Shown piece after piece: positions 3,841 to 24,206 of a stretch of 64,000 bases of DNA; positions within the stretch are counted from its first letter, which is position 1, and the number at the start of each line of letters is the position of its first letter. Below the pieces are notes generated by a model. The model had not been told where the DNA came from. It did not search any database and saw only the letters and a program-made list of their open reading frames with translations. The stretch comes from Paenibacillaceae bacterium GAS479 (lineage in GTDB: Bacteria > Bacillota > Bacilli > Paenibacillales > Paenibacillaceae), in contig LT629764.1 of the NCBI GenBank assembly GCA_900105225.1, positions 322,098 through 386,097 of the forward strand, read 5' to 3'. The position numbers were made by a program, and so were the translations under genes.

Positions 3841-4794
3841 CTACCAACGATCCACCTGCGTCAATGCGGAAAGTTTAGCCGTGTCTACGATACTGATCTT
3901 GCCCGTACTGTGGGAAATTGCATTGGCGGCCCCTGCTGCCGTCGCCAGGCGCAGAGACTGGGCGATATCGAACCCTCGCGCATTCGCCACGGTCCATCCG
4001 GCGACAAAACAGTCGCCACTGCCAACGGCATTAACGGCATTGATCGCCGGAGGCATAGCGCGCCACAGTTCGCCCTCCGCCGTTGCTGCGATACAGCCTT
4101 CCTTGCCAAGCGAAACAATCAGCACTTTAACTCCCTTAAGGATAAGCTCGGACATAAGCTGCTGCACAGCGGCCCTATTGCGCGGATCAGCTCCGGTCCA
4201 CTGCCTGAACTCCTCTTCGTTCGGCTTGATCGTATGCGGTCCCGCCTCTATTCCTCGAATTAGCGCCGCACCGCTCGTATCCAGGACGATGTTGGCTCCT
4301 TTGGATCGGGATACGGCGATCAACTCGGCATAATAATTATCATCTAGCCCTTTCGGCAAACTCCCCGACAGCGTCATCCATTCGCCCGGCGTACTGAGCG
4401 CCCTCCAACGACCGATAAACTCCTGCGCCTCTTCTTCCTTTACAACAGGCCCGGATTCCAAAATCTCGGTCGATGTGCCGCTGGAATCGTCGATAATATT
4501 CAAACACATTCTAGTAAGTCCTTGAACGTACAGCCATTCCTGCTCGATTCTGGATTCGTAAAGAGAGGTTTGAATCCACTCTCCGTTGTCTCCTCCCAAA
4601 AACCCGGTCGCTATGACCTGTGCGCCAAGGGAGACGGCAGCCCTGGAAACGTTCAGCCCTTTGCCTCCGGGTGTCGACTCCTGGATGGTCGCTCTTTGCA
4701 CATTGCCAATGGATAGCTTGGGAACATGGATCCTCTTGTCCACAGCGGGATTCAGAGCTCCGCACACAACGGAAGACTTAAGCTCAGGATACAT
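3841..4794 (-). CDS. PfkB-family sugar-phosphate kinase, tagatose-6-phosphate kinase/1-phosphofructokinase type
   Basis: Predicted to phosphorylate a ketose phosphate (tagatose-6-phosphate or fructose-1-phosphate type) with ATP in the cytoplasm. The N-terminus has GALNPAVDK and the GGKGLNVSRA signature of the LacC/FruK branch; the ATP/anion-hole motif NAVGSGDCFVAGW near residue 260 carries the catalytic Asp. The length of 317 residues is normal. ATG 4794 is preferred; a TTG at 4812 in the same frame is an alternative. The start overlaps the end of the aldolase gene by 11 bases, which implies translational coupling. As the last gene of the operon, directly after a ketose-bisphosphate aldolase, it probably makes that enzyme's bisphosphate substrate. 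The exact sugar is not settled. Confidence 0.8.
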   Translation of the reverse strand: MYPELKSSVVCGALNPAVDKRIHVPKLSIGNVQRATIQESTPGGKGLNVSRAAVSLGAQVIATGFLGGDNGEWIQTSLYESRIEQEWLYVQGLTRMCLNIIDDSSGTSTEILESGPVVKEEEAQEFIGRWRALSTPGEWMTLSGSLPKGLDDNYYAELIAVSRSKGANIVLDTSGAALIRGIEAGPHTIKPNEEEFRQWTGADPRNRAAVQQLMSELILKGVKVLIVSLGKEGCIAATAEGELWRAMPPAINAVNAVGSGDCFVAGWTVANARGFDIAQSLRLATAAGAANAISHSTGKISIVDTAKLSALTQVDRW

Positions 4795-17536: not shown

Positions 17537-18109
17537 TTATTTCTGCGTCGCCTGCTGCAACGCTAGATTAAGCTTTAATACATTGACAGTCGGCTCTCCG
17601 AAAATGCCAAGCTGCCTGGAAGCAGTATGTTTACTGACCAAAGCTTCCAGTTCGGAAACGGACAATCCGGTCAATTTGCTAATGCGAGGTATTTGCGCCT
17701 GAGCTCCTTTTGGGCTGATATGGGGGTCAAGGCCCGAGCCGGAGTTCGTAATCAGATCCATCGTTAAATTGCTGACAGGAACATCCGGATTCGCAGTTTG
17801 CCAATCTTGAACGGATTGATTAGCTCTGGCCAGCAGATCCGGGTTGGATGGAGCGTAGTTCGGCGTGCCGGAACCGTTCGCAGTGTAACTGATACTCGAC
17901 AACCTACCGTGGAACCATTTTGGGTCAGTAAAGTTTTGGCCGATTAACTCCGAGCCGATCAGTTGGCCTTCCTTGTTGTAAATCAGGCTTCCGTCTGCCT
18001 TTTTGGGCAGCAGCGCCTGAGCAATTCCTGTTACAGCCATATTGTAGATCAGACCCGTAAGCACCATCAGCACCAAGCTGAGCCGCAAACTTATCGTTAA
18101 AATATTCAT
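17537..18109 (-). CDS. kdpC: Potassium-transporting ATPase subunit C
   Basis: The 190-residue protein has one N-terminal membrane helix (LRLSLVLMVLTGLIYNMAVTGIAQ) and the soluble KdpC domain with NFTDPKWFHGRLSS, NLTMDLITNSGSGLDPHISPKGA and a C-terminal GEPTVNVLKLNLAL. KdpC stabilises the KdpFABC complex and raises its ATP affinity. The start at ATG 18109 has AAGGAAG upstream and lies 31 bases after kdpB. Length and motifs are normal. Confidence 0.95.
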   Translation of the reverse strand: MNILTISLRLSLVLMVLTGLIYNMAVTGIAQALLPKKADGSLIYNKEGQLIGSELIGQNFTDPKWFHGRLSSISYTANGSGTPNYAPSNPDLLARANQSVQDWQTANPDVPVSNLTMDLITNSGSGLDPHISPKGAQAQIPRISKLTGLSVSELEALVSKHTASRQLGIFGEPTVNVLKLNLALQQATQK

Positions 18110-18140: not shown

Positions 18141-20168
18141 TTATACCCATATCTGCACCATAAGATCGATCAGCTTAATTCCGGCAAAAGGAATAATGAC
18201 GCCGCCCAACCCATAAACGAGCAAGTTGCGCTGCAGCAGCTTCGCGGAGCTCGTCGGCTTGTATGCGATCCCTTTCATCGCGAGTGGAATAAGTAGTGGA
18301 ATAATAATTGCGTTGAAAATAAGTGCAGACAGGATAGCCGACATCGGCGAATCGAGTCTCATTACGTTCAGCGCCTCCATCTGCGGAATGGCGGCCATGA
18401 ACATTGCCGGAATGATCGCAAAGTACTTGGCCACATCATTGGAAATGCTGAACGTCGTGAGCGCGCCGCGCGTCATCAAAAGCTGCTTGCCAATCGCGAC
18501 CACCTCAATAATTTTGGACGGATCGGAATCCAGATCGACCATATTCGCCGCTTCCTTCGCCGCCGTAGTACCGCTGTTCATCGCAATACCGACATCGGCT
18601 TGGGCGAGCGCCGGTGCATCATTCGTACCGTCGCCGGTCATCGCGACCAGCTTGCCAGCGGCTTGTTCCCGCTTGATAACGGCAATTTTGTCCTCCGGTT
18701 TACTTTCCGCGATGAAGTCGTCGACTCCAGCTTCTCTTGCAATCGTCTGTGCGGTAAGCGGATTGTCTCCCGTACACATGATCGTTTTGATGCCCATTTG
18801 CCGCATCTGTTCGAACCGTTCCTTCATGCCGGGTTTAACGGTGTCCTTTAAATAAATGATGCCGAGCAGCCGCTCATCCACGGCCACAGCAAGCGGCGTT
18901 CCGCCTGCTGAAGCTACTTTGTCGCTTTTAACATCGAGGTCGCTCGGAATCGCTCCCCCCTGCTCAGTCACCCACTTTTTGATCGCGTCCACAGAGCCTT
19001 TGCGCACCTTGCGTCCGTCCGTTAGATTGATGCCGCTCATCCGCGTCTCTGCTCGGAATTCTACCCATTCTCCATCCGCCGCAAGCGACTGATTGTCGCT
19101 TAAGCCCATCTTTTTAGCCAGCTCAACCACGGAGCGACCTTCTGGCGTTCCGTCCTTCAGAGAACTGACAACAGCCCATTCGGCCACTGCTGTTTCATTC
19201 GTCCCGCCAACCGAGATGAATTCGCTGGCCATCCGGTTGCCGTACGTGATCGTTCCTGTTTTATCCAAAATAATCGTGTTAATATCGCCCGCAGCTTCAA
19301 CCGCCTTGCCCGACATGGCAATGACATTGAACTGGGTTACCCGATCCATGCCGGCGATGCCGATAGCGGATAGCAGACCGCCGATTGTCGTTGGAATCAG
19401 GCAGACGAGCAGCGCAATAAGTACTGGAACTTCCAGTGTGACGTCAAGATAATTGCCGAAGAAAGGAAGCGTCACGACTACAATGAGGAAAATAATCGTT
19501 AAACATGTCAGCACCGTATTAAGCGCGATTTCATTTGGCGTCTTCTGCCGTTTAGCACCCTCGACCAGCGAGATCATACGGTCCAGGAAAGACTCGCCGG
19601 GATCACTCGTAATCCGCACCTTAATCCAGTCGCTGAGCACCTTAGTGCCCCCAGTTACCGAGCTGAAGTCGCCTCCGGCTTCTTTGATGACAGGAGCAGA
19701 CTCACCCGTAATGGCAGATTCGTCGACGGAAGCAAGACCTTCCACAACTTCACCATCACCGGGAACCCATTGCCCGGCTTCGATCTGAACGATATCTCCT
19801 CTGCGCAGCTCGCTTGACGAAACTTCGCGCAGCGTGCCTCCAGTTTCCTTATAAGCAACGATATCTTTTTTGGAGTGTTTGAGCGAATCCGCCTGAGCTT
19901 TGCCCCGTCCCTCCGCTAATGCTTCAGCAAAGTTTGCGAACAACAACGTAATCAAGAGAATAATAGCGACCGTAATATTGAACCAAGCCGGCGTGTCTCC
20001 ACCGAAAGCATTCGGAGCAAACGACAGGAACAAAGTAATGACAAAACCGATCTCCACCACAAACATGATCGGATTGCGGAACATAACTCGTGGATCTAAC
20101 TTCAGTACGGACTCCTTCAGCGCTTGCCGGATGATGTCTCCGTTAAGCGCCTTTTTTCGATGGCTCAT
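18141..20168 (-). CDS. kdpB: Potassium-transporting ATPase ATP-binding subunit
   Basis: This P-type ATPase catalytic subunit has 675 residues and powers high-affinity potassium uptake. It contains TGES at residues 154-157, the phosphorylation motif DKTGTIT with Asp302, and the hinge [25 protein letters not shown]. Ser157 in TGES corresponds to the serine whose phosphorylation inhibits E. coli KdpB at high potassium, so that switch may be retained. ATG 20168 follows GAGGAG. It lies between kdpA and kdpC in the usual order. Confidence 0.97.
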
Positions 20169-20199: not shown

Positions 20200-21870
20200 T
20201 TACGGCTTCAGGGTCAATTGCTCTGCGATCGGTCCCAGCACCAGGCTTGGGAAAAACGTGAGCGCTCCTACGATGAGCACTGTTCCGAGGAATACAACAC
20301 CGAAAAGTGCGCTATCCGTACGGAACGTTCCGATCGTTTCCGGCACCGCTTTTTTGGCAGCCAATGAGCCGCCAACAGCTAACAGCGTAATCACGGAAAG
20401 ATAGCGGCCGAAGTACATCACAAGACCGGTGCTAATATTCCAGAACGGGGTATTGTCCCCAAGTCCTTCAAATCCGGAGCCATTGTTGGCGGCCGATGAC
20501 GTGAATTCATACATCGCCTGAGTCAAGCCGTGGAAGCCGGGATTGGAGATCGTTTCTGGATAAGCAAATACGGCGATCGCCGTTGGCACCAAAATAAGAA
20601 TGGGATGAATGAGCAGCGTTAAAGCGATTAGCATCATTTCTTTGCCTTCCAGCTTTTTACCGAGGAATTCAGGCGTACGGCCGACCATCAGGCCTGACAA
20701 GAAAACGGCGACTAGCGCATAGAGCAGCACGTTCATGAATCCAGCGCCAACACCGCCAAATACGGTATTCAGCATCATGTTTACCAGCGGCACCATGCCG
20801 CCAATCGGTGTAAGCGAGTCATGCATACCATTGACGGCGCCTGTTTCTGAAGCGGTCGTCACCACCGAATACAGCGAGGTTTGTGTGACACCAAAGCGCG
20901 TTTCCTTGCCTTCCATACTGCCCTGCTGATGATCAACGCCAAGCGCATTGAGAGCAGGGTTGCCCGCATTTTCGGCGGTAAGTGAAGTTCCGAGCATGAC
21001 TATGAACAGCACAGCCATCGAAACGAATAATACGCGGCCTTGTTTTGCATTTCCGACCATTTTTCCATACACAAAAGGCAATGAGGTCGTGACGAGCAGC
21101 ATTAAAATCATCTGTAGCAAGTTGCTGATCGCCCCTGGATTCTCGAATGGATGCGCGGAGTTCACGCCCATGAATCCACCACCATTGTTGCCAAGCTCCT
21201 TGATCGCTAGGAATGAAGCCATCGGCCCCCTCGCGATGGATTGCTCCTCGCCTTGCAGCGTCTGAGCAACTGTCGTTGAATCCAACGTTTGCGGTACGCC
21301 AAGCGCGACGAAGATCAGCGCTGACACAATGGCGATTGGCAGGAATATTCGAGTGATGGAGCGAGTCAGGTCGACAAAAAAGTTACCCATCGGCTTGCCG
21401 GAGAGCGCCCGCATGAACGCCATGACGACACCAAGCAAGGTGGCCGGGGAGGCAAACATCATGAACACTATCGCAATCATTTGCGAAAGATAGGACAATC
21501 CGCTTTCGCCGCTATAATGCTGCAGATTCGTGTTAGCCATGAAGCTGATCGCAGTATTGAATGCTAATCGCGGCTCCATATTGGCGATGCCGCTCGGATT
21601 AAACGGAAGATACGCTTGCGTCCGGAACACCGTGTAGACGAGCAACATCATTAACCCGTTACTAATGACGACGGCGGCTGCGTATGTTTTCCAGGTTTGA
21701 TTTTCCGGTCGAATGCCGCTCAGACGATAGATTAATCTTTCAACAGGTCCAAAAAATCGATCAAGTTTTGTTTTTTCAGCGCTGAACGCGCTATACACAT
21801 ACATGCCTGTGGGCCGTGCTAGCAGCACAACAAGCAGCAAAGTAATTCCGATTGAAATCCATGCGATCAT
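20200..21870 (-). CDS. kdpA: Potassium-transporting ATPase potassium-binding subunit
   Basis: The 556-residue polytopic membrane protein forms the selectivity filter of the KdpFABC complex. Filter-type repeats are visible: [62 protein letters not shown] and [27 protein letters not shown] 21870 has AAGGAG upstream. Length agrees with the family, and it follows kdpF directly. Confidence 0.97.
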
Positions 21871-21892: not shown

Positions 21893-21973
21893 TCAGAATT
21901 TTTCGGGGTGAAGCAGCACGTATGTCAGATAAATGAACACAGCAGCAATGATAACGCCAAGGGTCCACATCAT
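21893..21973 (-). CDS. kdpF: KdpF microprotein
   Basis: The 26-residue peptide MMWTLGVIIAAVFIYLTYVL followed by LHPEKF has one membrane helix and a C-terminal P-E-K-F resembling the N-A-E-x-F end of E. coli KdpF. KdpF stabilises the Kdp complex. Its ATG overlaps the stop of the preceding microprotein (ATGA), and AAGGAAGGG lies upstream. The position directly before kdpA supports the call. Confidence 0.82.
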   Translation of the reverse strand: MMWTLGVIIAAVFIYLTYVLLHPEKF

Positions 21974-22077
21974 TTCTTTTCCCTTCCTTCCACAACCTGC
22001 TTGTCGACCCAGTGCAAAAATCCAATCAGGCCGGCACTCAATGCGACCACAAGTCCAACCATCAGTACATCCATCAT
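21970..22077 (-). CDS. Single-helix microprotein in the kdp operon
   Basis: The 35-residue peptide starts at ATG 22077 behind GGAAGGGGAAG. It is MMDVLMVGLVVALSAGLIG followed by FLHWVDKQVVEGREKK: one membrane helix and a short charged tail. The stop overlaps the kdpF start by four bases, so the two are translationally coupled. It is not classic KdpF in sequence, but its size and position suggest a second small Kdp partner. A second start codon three bases downstream is also possible. Function is unknown. Confidence 0.6.
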   Translation of the reverse strand: MMDVLMVGLVVALSAGLIGFLHWVDKQVVEGREKK

Positions 22078-22109: not shown

Positions 22110-22532
22110 TTAATTGGCCTCGTCCAGGATCAAATATGAAACGTCGCCGCCATTCGTGTGAATGACATAATCCGCTCCAACGCCTCGGAAAATCAGCCTT
22201 GAATGCTGAGCTTGAGTAATCACGTAAATACTTCTTCCTGTCCAGGAACGGCATAGTTGAAGATACCGACAACATAACGCCAAGCTGCTTTCAAACAGAA
22301 ATACTTTACCCACTGGAAATTCTGGTAAAACTAAGTTTTGCTTGTCAGACGTATTAACTTGAACGATATGATCGATGCCGAGTTGCAGCATGCTCTCTCG
22401 CTCTCGATCATTGTTGACCAGAGCGGCACAGGGGAGCTTGCGCAGGTTAAGCATGATAAGAAACTTCACACCGGCTGCCGTCGCCGGCGATACTAGAATA
22501 CGTTCTTCATCTCGTTCCTCGGACTGGTACAT
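22110..22532 (-). CDS. Uncharacterised Rossmann-like protein, first gene of the kdp operon
   Basis: ATG 22532 follows GGAGGGG and gives 140 residues; the longer frame to 22613 would start inside the riboswitch terminator. The pattern has alternating strands and helices: RILVSPATAAGVKFLIM, CAALVNN, MLQLGIDHIVQV, VFLFESSLALCCRYLQ, SIYVITQ and RLIFRGVGADYVIHT. The last motif resembles the GADYVI strand of RCK/TrkA-N nucleotide-binding domains found in potassium channel regulators. A complete GxGxxG loop is not evident, so this could be a degenerate regulatory domain. It lies directly after two c-di-AMP riboswitches and before the Kdp microproteins, suggesting a potassium-related regulatory role, but it is not recognised. 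Confidence 0.6.
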   Translation of the reverse strand: MYQSEERDEERILVSPATAAGVKFLIMLNLRKLPCAALVNNDRERESMLQLGIDHIVQVNTSDKQNLVLPEFPVGKVFLFESSLALCCRYLQLCRSWTGRSIYVITQAQHSRLIFRGVGADYVIHTNGGDVSYLILDEAN

Positions 22533-22560: not shown

Positions 22561-22605
22561 ACAAAAAGAAGCTGTACGAAAAGAAGAGGTCCTTTCGCCA
22601 GCTTC
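22561..22605 (-). terminator. Riboswitch-controlled terminator of the proximal c-di-AMP riboswitch
   Basis: On the minus strand GAAGCTG and CGAAA pair with TTTTCG and CAGCTTC, followed by TTTTTGTT. It lies between the proximal aptamer and the first gene of the kdp operon, as expected for a transcription-terminating expression platform. Confidence 0.75.
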
Positions 22606-22660
22606 ATAGGCACAGGAAAACAAGCTGTGTCTAAAGCGACAATTGTTGCCTCTCTTACAG

Positions 22661-22833
22661 GACGCTTACGAGGTTAGCTGTCGGATTCGGGCGGAAGAGT
22701 CGCCCTACGAGCCCCGCTCATCACGGCTGCGGCTCGATTCACCCCTGAAGCGGAATTCGAAATTCCTCTCCGTTGGATCCCCCGTTCCCAGGAAAACGAT
22801 CTGCTGTGGCAGATGTTTCCTGGCATTCAGCGG
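22661..22833 (-). ncRNA. c-di-AMP riboswitch (ydaO-yuaA class), proximal copy
   Basis: Read on the minus strand, this region holds the conserved blocks ACGGGGGATCC, GGGGTGAATC and AGGGCGACTCTTCCGCC, then CCGAATCCGACAGCTAACC and CGTAAGCG. The ends CGCT and AGCG can form the closing stem. These are the hallmarks of ydaO riboswitches, which bind c-di-AMP and in known cases switch off potassium and osmolyte uptake genes. A T-tailed terminator follows 56 bases downstream, then the kdp operon. Confidence 0.92.
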
Positions 22834-22839
22834 CTAGAT

Positions 22840-22859
22840 GTCTGAATCGCAATTCAGAC
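22840..22859 (-). other. Short perfect stem-loop between the two riboswitch units
   Basis: GTCTGAAT and ATTCAGAC enclose a four-base loop. It lies between the distal terminator and the proximal aptamer and may insulate their folding. Confidence 0.5.
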
Positions 22860-22873
22860 GTTATAAATAAGTC

Positions 22874-22902
22874 AAAAACCACAGAGGCAGAGGCCCCTGT
22901 GG
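22874..22902 (-). terminator. Terminator of the distal c-di-AMP riboswitch
   Basis: On the minus strand CCACAGGGGC pairs with GCCTCTGTGG (one G-U pair, CTCT loop), followed by TTTTT. It sits between the two aptamers, so transcription must pass two conditional stops before the kdp genes. Confidence 0.85.
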
Positions 22903-22945
22903 TCGCAAGCGATCACAAGCGTCATCATCCTCTCTCTATCTAGGT

Positions 22946-22967
22946 CAGGTCTTGTACCCAAGACCTG
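22946..22967 (-). other. Stem-loop after the distal aptamer, possible part of its expression platform
   Basis: CAGGTCTTG and CAAGACCTG form a perfect 9-base stem with a 4-base loop, directly downstream of the distal aptamer. No T-run follows, so it is not itself a terminator. Confidence 0.5.
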
Positions 22968-22974
22968 GCCTACC

Positions 22975-23157
22975 TACGCTTACGAAGTTAGCTGTCGGAT
23001 TCGGGCGGTGAGAGTCGCCCTACTAACAGAAATGGATGTCCATGGCTCCATTTCTGCTAGATTCACCCCGGATGGAAGAGCTCCGACTCTCACATCGGAT
23101 TCTAGCCATCTTGTGGTTCCCCCGTTTTCCAGTTGGAAATTTAGCGTTGTAAAATGC
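22975..23157 (-). ncRNA. c-di-AMP riboswitch (ydaO-yuaA class), distal copy
   Basis: On the minus strand the region carries ACGGGGGAACCAC, CGGGGTGAATC and AGGGCGACTCTCACCGCC, then CCGAATCCGACAGCTAACTT and CGTAAGCG. ACGCT and AGCGT can close the first stem. A long variable arm contains the paired CAGAAATGGA/TCCATTTCTG-like arms. It lies 141 bases upstream of the second ydaO aptamer in the same orientation, so the two are in tandem on one leader RNA. Confidence 0.92.
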
Positions 23158-23540: not shown

Positions 23541-24206
23541 ATGACGACCAAGGAAAAAATCATGGTCTGTGTCTATTATGGACCGCATGGCGAACGGCTT
23601 ATTCGACGCGGCGTTGAACTGGCTGCAAGGCTGAACTGCCCCCTCCATGTGCTGAGTGTCATTCCGGTCAGCATGGAGGAGCTCAGTCAGAAACAGGAAG
23701 CCTATTTGAACCTTTGGCGGATTCGCTGCGCGGAATCAGGCGCTTTATTTTTCGTAGAGCATGCCAGCTCCCGCCCTGCTGTTGCTGTCATTGCAGAGAT
23801 CGCTCGAAAGCGGCAAATTACAGGGATCATCGTGGGACAATCCGCGCAATCCCGCTGGCAAGAGCTTATTCGCGGCTCTTTCACCAATGAGCTGCTGCGC
23901 CGGGTTGGCAAGATTGACCTGCATATTGTTGCTGTTCAGCGTATGGATAACGATCTGGAAGAGACGCATGAGCGGGGAATTCATGTGACGGTTAGGCGGG
24001 CGGGAGCGGAATATGAGCTTAGCCATTCACTTCCGGACAATGGCACAGTAGCAATGGGCATCTTTTTCAAAAACCTGAATACGGAGTTTGACAGCGGACT
24101 GCTCAAGCTCAAAAATGGCGATGGTTTTGCTTATTTTAAGATCCGCAAAGGGGTTGTCGCTGACGCTGCCTTCCCACCTTTTTTGGAAAAGTCGAAAAAG
24201 AAATAA
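23541..24206 (+). CDS. Solitary KdpD-type universal stress (USP) domain protein
   Basis: The 221-residue protein starts at ATG 23541 after GAGAGGAGGAG. Residues 5-135 form a USP fold as found in KdpD: KIMVCVYYGPHGERLIRRGVELAARLNCPLHVLSV, then ITGIIVGQSAQSRWQELIRGSFTNELLRR and DLHIVAV. The remaining 85 residues are unlike KdpD and unrecognised. It is divergent from the kdp operon, with the two c-di-AMP riboswitches in between on the other strand. No Walker motifs, membrane helices or kinase parts are present. A potassium or c-di-AMP sensing role is inferred from its KdpD resemblance and position only. Confidence 0.75.
   Translation: MTTKEKIMVCVYYGPHGERLIRRGVELAARLNCPLHVLSVIPVSMEELSQKQEAYLNLWRIRCAESGALFFVEHASSRPAVAVIAEIARKRQITGIIVGQSAQSRWQELIRGSFTNELLRRVGKIDLHIVAVQRMDNDLEETHERGIHVTVRRAGAEYELSHSLPDNGTVAMGIFFKNLNTEFDSGLLKLKNGDGFAYFKIRKGVVADAAFPPFLEKSKKK

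Follow-up and report, generated by a model that had tools for sequence, protein, structure and literature searches.

Two c-di-AMP riboswitches of different type in series before a kdp operon in Paenibacillaceae

Introduction

The locus described here raises the question of what a second riboswitch for the same ligand adds to a leader that already carries one. In the window, by which we mean the whole analysed stretch of 64,000 nucleotides from the genome of Paenibacillaceae bacterium GAS479 (contig LT629764.1), two c-di-AMP (ydaO) riboswitches follow one another upstream of genes for potassium uptake. A sequence-only reading of the locus had noted that such switches shut off potassium uptake when c-di-AMP is high, a direction that has been shown for kdp with the single riboswitch before kdpFABC of Bacillus thuringiensis, an off-switch (PMC6488665, Commun Biol 2019), and had proposed that two of them in series make the response steeper or tighter. 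What that reading missed is that the two members are of different types, so that their set points need not match.

Results

Two complete switches in one leader

A cmscan search of the 64-kb window with Rfam 15 bore out the presence of two complete RF00379 (c-di-AMP/ydaO) aptamers on the minus strand (Table 1), which are the sole Rfam matches within the window above the gathering threshold (38 bits for RF00379); the whole genome holds seven RF00379 matches. Both aptamers contain the four sequence blocks that had been pointed out beforehand, and we take these conserved core blocks of RF00379 to line both binding pockets. The spacing of 141 bases given earlier becomes 153 nt (22809-22961) when counted between the aptamer matches, a difference that lies in the choice of boundaries, and no ORF among those listed, of at least 80 aa, falls in this gap. 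Each aptamer is followed by a terminator of its own, as had been claimed, the first found by a terminator scan and the second visible in folds only, the simple scans giving no match at 22605-22561.

A promoter that would split the two units was considered and rejected: a simple promoter scan listed none on the minus strand from terminator 1 to aptamer 2, and the aptamers lie 61-190 nt apart in 28 doublets from related loci (counted after de-duplication, which removed one L077 doublet member and the L045 single). We infer that both switches share one transcript. Also rejected was a recent duplication of the aptamer, which is ruled out by the 73% identity of aptamers 1 and 2 across 161 aligned columns, by their differing types and by the retention of these types across doublets. 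A leader peptide in platform 1 (AUGAUG...) was likewise dropped, since by eye the frame is open in some leaders and closed at once in others (AUGUGA), and the peptide is therefore not conserved.

Table 1. Positions, in window coordinates, of the switch elements and of the genes behind them.
Feature	Position	Strand	Basis or remark
c-di-AMP (ydaO) aptamer 1, upstream member	22962-23156	-	RF00379, 83.0 bits, E 8e-18, model 1-134 of 134
L3 hairpin in the variable insertion of aptamer 1: stem UCCGA/UCGGA, loop UGUGAGAG (L3, 23087-23094)	23082-23099	-	stem covariation
L5 hairpin of aptamer 1: GGGC-GACUCUCACC-GCCC, loop with CUCUCAC at 23008-23014	23003-23020	-	complementary to L3
3' tail GAGAGAGG of switch 1	22929-22936	-	possible partners: L5 (pseudoknot) or CCUCU of terminator 1 (antiterminator)
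Antiterminator hairpin candidate of switch 1, CUUGUGAUCG...CGACCACAGG	22896-22919	-	overlaps 5' arm of terminator 1
Intrinsic terminator 1, GACCACAGGGGC..GCCUCUGUGGUUUUU	22872-22904	-	terminator scan (22904-22877 plus T tail)
c-di-AMP (ydaO) aptamer 2, downstream member, without L3	22647-22808	-	RF00379, 69.5 bits, E 5e-14, model 1-134 of 134
3' tail AAGAGAGG of switch 2	22649-22656	-	complementary to own L5 loop (CUCUU)
Intrinsic terminator 2	22561-22605	-	folds: 16-bp stem, one bulge, then U5
First gene behind the switches, 140-aa protein, RCK_N (KTN/TrkA-N) fold	22110-22532	-	predicted structure; no Pfam or NCBIfam match
35-codon membrane-peptide ORF in the place of kdpF	21970-22077	-	inferred from size and position; containing ORF without Pfam match
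kdpA	20200-21870	-	PF03814, E 2.7e-226
kdpB	18141-20168	-	E1-E2_ATPase and hydrolase domains, operon position
kdpC	17537-18109	-	PF02669, E 2.2e-69
KdpD-like non-kinase sensor, 777 aa	15155-17488	-	NF038185, 694 bits, two stretches; PF02702, two stretches

Doublets at related kdpA loci

We collected the 80 loci with the best kdpA match, the best 80 of 332 relatives, and searched them with patterns of the conserved blocks as well as a covariance model derived from 40 aptamers. At least one c-di-AMP aptamer was found upstream, on the kdp strand, at 70 of these 80 loci, and such switches are thus common among the kdpA loci nearest to that of the window. With an adjacent doublet defined by a gap under 300 nt, and counting without de-duplication, 29 loci have an adjacent doublet, 4 a wider-spaced pair, 37 a single switch and 10 none, although one of these ten (L017) offers a single base of upstream sequence. 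Tandem ydaO elements are therefore not the rarity that had been supposed, given these 29 loci and the published class of 77 doublets, most of them with a terminator between the members (PMC9481103, RNA Biol 2022). Among the 29 doublets, a strict finder located a terminator between the aptamers in 21; inspection by eye, where that finder had no match, showed a longer-loop hairpin in L035, L055, L079 and L081 and a mismatch-bearing one in L010, and in three doublets (L060, L074, L086) no terminator is evident between the two members.

Closer to home, three of eight genomes of the window's genus have two RF00379 matches within 500 bases. Two of these doublets stand before kdp, in the window and in one other genome (G003, locus L088). 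The third (G002, locus L089) precedes an RCK_N gene that stands alone, its 12 kb containing neither a kdpA nor a kdpB match.

Further aptamers were observed around these operons. The opposite (minus) strand of the kdp neighbourhood carries additional c-di-AMP aptamers in L010, L014, L025, L026, L030, L061, L064, L065, L068, L070, L073, L074, L077 and L086, two of them about 30 nt apart in L025, and c-di-AMP may thus control further genes of this region. In Bacillus piscicola (L032), a weak third match (552-716, 26.8 bits) lies between the two kdp aptamers and is possibly what is left of a decayed triplet.

An extra hairpin that fits loop L5

The two members differ by a hairpin, L3, in the variable insertion that separates GGGGGA.CC from GGGGTGAATC, and the loop of this hairpin holds the heptamer GUGAGAG, always in the form UGUGAGAG. 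L3 is present in the upstream member of all 29 doublets and in the downstream member of none, and its loop has perfect 7-nt complementarity to CUCUCAC in the L5 loop of the same aptamer. In the set of kdp loci, whose choice took neither loop into account, CUCUCAC occurs in L5 of 35 of 35 distinct aptamers with L3 as opposed to 18 of 84 without it (Fisher 4e-17, kinship ignored; six aptamers with unparsed L5 were entered as lacking CUCUCAC). In a single sequence, an 8-nt loop and a 10-nt loop would fit over 7 nt by chance with a probability of about 0.0005. Duplex energies, loop costs left out, are -10.5 kcal/mol for L3:L5 and -8.0 kcal/mol for tail:L5 in aptamer 1, and -5.6 kcal/mol for tail:L5 in aptamer 2.

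The stem of L3 varies in a compensated manner, with changes on both sides at six of six pairs in 58 aligned upstream-type aptamers (58 of 83 with L3, part of the rows having been chosen by a pattern that fixes the loops but not the stem), and it is paired in 94.8% of cases as compared to 37-44% in slid controls. The contact between L3 and L5, on the other hand, shows no covariation, as its seven pairs never vary across the 58 aligned aptamers; for most of the rows from L090 onward, the pattern used to find them prescribed both loops and thereby imposed the invariance. A search with the upstream-type pattern matched 76 genomes in each of two overlapping samples, one of 295 genomes from the family and one of 296 from the order, and its reversed control gave zero matches. 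When two letters of L3 were freed (matches in 101 of 392 genomes), all but three of the listed matches still read UGUGAGAG. Two of the exceptions, L179 and L180, have a near copy of L3 together with an L5 and a platform of the downstream type; the remaining one, L181, looks like a chance match.

Within the kdpA loci, L3 is also found in 6 of the 37 single switches, four of which (L011, L062, L064, L068) were flagged as having a downstream-type platform, that of L011 as both types; L3 is thus not strictly tied to doublets or to platform 1. The singles L011, L062, L064, L068, L179 and L180 have the look of doublets reduced to one switch by recombination. Conversely, the upstream-type L5 loop (CUCUCACC) occurs without L3 in the L089 doublet and in the most upstream aptamer of L078.

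The association with kdp is close. Pattern searches made without reference to kdp (three of them, contributing 22, 23 and 3 aptamers from about 30 loci per search, some repeating the kdp-locus set) yielded 48 distinct L3 aptamers, of which 44 are followed on the same strand by a match to KdpA or KdpB. Three others are followed by just an RCK_N gene before the sequence stops 1.1 kb downstream, and one (L146, 1.5 kb) by neither. In line with this link, L3 is missing from the same-genus doublet L089, which precedes a lone RCK_N gene without kdp.

These observations bear on whether L3 does anything at all. The pair may be a plain pseudo-cooperative doublet, that is, two equivalent off-switches in which the extra hairpin is a variable peripheral stem without contact, an explanation that we consider possible, though on balance doubtful. 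It would agree with the tandem class and the interpretation of it that are already in print (PMC9481103), with the lack of covariation between L3 and L5, and with the two loci that keep the upstream-type L5 without L3; it does not, however, account for a GUGAGAG that is kept inside an otherwise hypervariable insertion, for the strict division of L3 between upstream and downstream members and its near restriction to aptamers before kdpA or kdpB, for an L5 that is constant where L3 is present and variable where it is absent, or for a loop fit of such low chance probability.

A contact with another partner also comes into question. If L3 paired with the L5 of the downstream aptamer, for which it matters that CUCUCAC is found in L5 of many downstream members, the doublet would be one cooperative four-ligand device (compare PMC9481103 on doublets without a terminator). 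As a general rule this is ruled out by downstream loops that do not fit: that of the window reads CUCUUCC, and those of L020, L021, L027, L028 and L035 have no fit to L3 either. The upstream aptamer's own L5, by contrast, fits L3 in every member, and L3 exists in singles, where there is no second aptamer to reach; we therefore hold a cross-aptamer contact to be highly unlikely.

A second peculiarity of upstream-type aptamers was observed in the arm between the two conserved blocks, whose apical loop in aptamer 1 holds the palindrome CCAUGG (23040-23045, minus strand). Self-complementary apical hexamers occur in 47 of 82 upstream-type aptamers as opposed to 7 of 141 others (kinship and arm length ignored), with CCAUGG in 35, CCUAGG in 5 and GCAUGC, GCUAGC and single others in the remaining 7. 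A dimer-type contact or a special loop may lie behind them.

Genes behind the switches

The switches do stand before a kdp operon, as had been stated, with kdpA, kdpC and a kdpB-type ATPase co-directional behind them according to Pfam, but the gene directly behind is not a kdp gene: a 140-codon ORF comes first, then a 35-codon kdpF-like ORF, and only then kdpA. The 140-aa product has no Pfam match and no NCBIfam match; its AlphaFold2 model (mean pLDDT 86.8) was matched by Foldseek best to 3llv (E 3.2e-5) and also to KtrA, MthK and TrkA-N domains, whereas in a profile search 3llv and TrkA domain chains reached only E 0.08-0.45 and ranked behind unrelated chains. A profile made from this protein and 32 relatives (E threshold 1e-3, kdp strand only) finds the RCK_N gene at 46 of the 80 kdpA loci in sum, not always adjoining kdpA: at 23 of the 29 doublets and all 4 far pairs, among the singles at 3 of the 6 with L3 and 13 of the 31 others, and at 3 of the 10 switchless loci, some of the weaker matches being away from kdpA. 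The conserved protein is 130-140 aa long, including the L089 copy (4101-4493), and in L029, L031 and L034 its ORF sits between the two switches. With the gene placed there, or alone behind the L089 doublet, it seems to be a c-di-AMP target itself.

A protein-binding role for L3 has to be weighed here, for instance as the site of the adjoining gene's RCK_N protein in a feedback on the operon. A conserved loop on a covarying stem that is nearly confined to kdp, and the frequency of the RCK_N gene at doublet loci, would suit such a role. The gene and the hairpin do not go together closely, however: no RCK_N gene could be detected at 6 of the 29 doublets, all of which carry L3, the gene is present at 13 of the 31 singles that lack L3, and the lone RCK_N gene of L089 follows a doublet without L3. 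The perfect fit of L3 to L5 would be left unexplained as well. RCK_N domains are not known to bind RNA, and we regard a protein-binding L3 as very improbable.

The last gene listed in Table 1 encodes a KdpD-like protein with the sensor part (KdpD N-terminal plus Usp-like) twice and no kinase. On the other side of the switches, a divergent gene (23541-24206, plus strand) encodes one universal-stress (KdpD/Usp-like) domain corresponding to positions 244-371 of NF038185, and is a stand-alone piece of the same KdpD-like sensor. About 19 kb outside the window in the same genome (L187 1577-3121, minus strand) lies the gene for a DUF4118 histidine kinase of 514 aa that lacks the KdpD N-terminal part, overlapped by a gene (L187 856-1584, minus strand) that by eye is response-regulator-like. 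This gene pair is possibly the other half of a split KdpDE.

Expression platforms

In each switch, L5 and the 3' tail offer pseudoknot strands of 5 pairs, and in switch 1 a further hairpin stands between P1 and the tail. The leader behind upstream-type aptamers commonly reads GAGAGAGGAUGAUGAAGCUUGUGAUCG..CGACCACAGGG..CCUCUGUGGUUUUU, with changes. Among the 57 platforms with a pattern-parsable terminator out of the 83 L3 aptamers, the CUUGUGAUCG:CGACCACAGG antiterminator helix has at least 7 pairs in 43 and just 3-4 pairs in six (L061, L084, L102, L106, L107, L146). Shuffles of the upstream strand match the observed helix length in a mean of 22% of trials (4% for the window), so that the helix is weak evidence in many single sequences.

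When the window transcript is ended in the 3' arm of terminator 1, the predicted fold has the antiterminator enclosed by AGAGG:CCUCU, with the tail as outer strand (-20.4 kcal/mol); with the complete transcript of platform 1, the terminator folds instead (-26.7 kcal/mol). In these folds antiterminator and terminator 1 are mutually exclusive, which suggests the order that a tail held on L5 leaves the terminator and a free tail the antiterminator. Platform 2, stopped before its 3' arm, folded without a tail:CCUCU antiterminator.

The same elements can be arranged to give the opposite sign. Should L3:L5 replace the tail in the bound state, the tail would be free for the antiterminator, and at high c-di-AMP switch 1 would be on and switch 2 off, making the leader a band-pass. 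The duplex of L3 with L5 is the longer one (7 pairs vs 5), the tail of platform 1 belongs to the predicted antiterminator, and in many upstream members P1 and the tail are set apart by extra sequence that is often a hairpin, all of which would fit. Yet most upstream members retain the complementarity of tail and L5, turning potassium uptake on at high c-di-AMP would go against the known role of c-di-AMP, and the one kdp c-di-AMP switch with a test in the literature searched is off (PMC6488665); such an arrangement is in our view most unlikely.

Discussion

Proposed working of the pair

The explanation that we prefer is that of two c-di-AMP termination riboswitches in series on one leader, which would control the RCK_N gene, kdpFABC and the KdpD-like sensor. 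At high c-di-AMP, when potassium is ample, each aptamer would bind c-di-AMP, two molecules of it, and its own L5 would hold the 3' tail (GAGAG); with the tail held, the antiterminator would be lost and the terminator would form, and polymerase would reach the genes only past both stops. In the upstream member, the L3 loop UGUGAGAG would act as a copy of the tail strand that can fit L5 with 7 pairs to the tail's 5, and by competing with the tail it would shift the set point of switch 1 relative to switch 2, such that more c-di-AMP is needed or release is faster. Ligand binding, the contact between L3 and L5 and its effect are inferred, and so is the off direction, which we take from the kdp switch of B. 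thuringiensis (PMC6488665). That the pair consists of c-di-AMP off-switches we consider very probable, and the explanation as a whole, an off-switch pair in series with the first retuned by L3, still probable; the competition at L5, taken by itself, is a plausible but tentative element. With similar caution we propose that the upstream member may form a kdp-dedicated subclass in which a kissing contact of L3 with L5 competes with the tail and gives the two members different set points, at the extreme opposite signs, with expression only at intermediate c-di-AMP.

The expectation that a series of two would be steeper or tighter holds mainly for its second half. In a toy calculation with two equal switches in series, EC90/EC10 falls from 81 to 40 at a Hill coefficient of 1 and from 15.6 to 10 at 1.6, so the gain in steepness would be modest; tightness is the larger expected gain, because leaks multiply. 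Two equal switches thus narrow the response only about twofold, and stacking identical sensors would mainly cut leak. The units of a pseudo-cooperative tandem are expected to act independently and to respond to similar ligand levels; the difference in L3 between the members argues against equal ligand sensitivity here. If our proposal is true, the stacking would be explained as two sensors of different set points rather than as copies of one, and if L3 works as proposed, it would be a natural case in which a riboswitch is tuned by a built-in mimic of the strand that regulates it.

Comparison with known systems

The kdp leader of B. thuringiensis shares with the window the aptamer class, the operon and the terminator-based off-switch, and differs in having one switch where the window has two (PMC6488665). 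The same work reports 12 species with a kdp riboswitch, to be set against the 70 of 80 nearest kdpA loci here, a KdpD truncated to its N-terminal part in genomes with the switch, and mutual exclusion of riboswitch and KdpDE. The present genome has, outside the window, the DUF4118 kinase and the response-regulator-like gene described above, and if these act on kdp the exclusion needs qualifying.

For the ydaO aptamer that has been crystallised, the construct sequence printed in PMC5393176 has an L5 loop complementary to the 3' tail, and we take the pseudoknot mentioned there to be this pairing of L5 with the tail. It is this complementarity that makes L3 a copy of the tail strand inside the aptamer. 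The upstream kdp aptamer has the core and the loop-tail complementarity in common with the construct, and differs from it by a second strand, L3, that fits the same loop.

The doublets of PMC9481103 resemble that of the window in having two complete units in a row with no ORF between them. The main text of that paper contains no occurrence of kdp or Paenibacillus, and the portion searched mentions neither a difference between members nor an L3-type loop. We found no L3-like kissing or loop-loop contact for the ydaO class in the literature searched, a body outside which lie the ydaO discovery and structure papers and supplements, and no paper that combines Paenibacillus, a c-di-AMP riboswitch and kdp in the same literature, again with supplements outside it. 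Within these bounds, the pairing of switches itself is already in print, and the differing types of its members, marked by L3, were not found there.

Tandem TPP and glycine riboswitches likewise place units for the same ligand in series, the TPP pairs with two platforms and the glycine pairs commonly with one (PMC9481103). Set beside them, the doublet of the window has a platform for each unit, and its units are of differing type.
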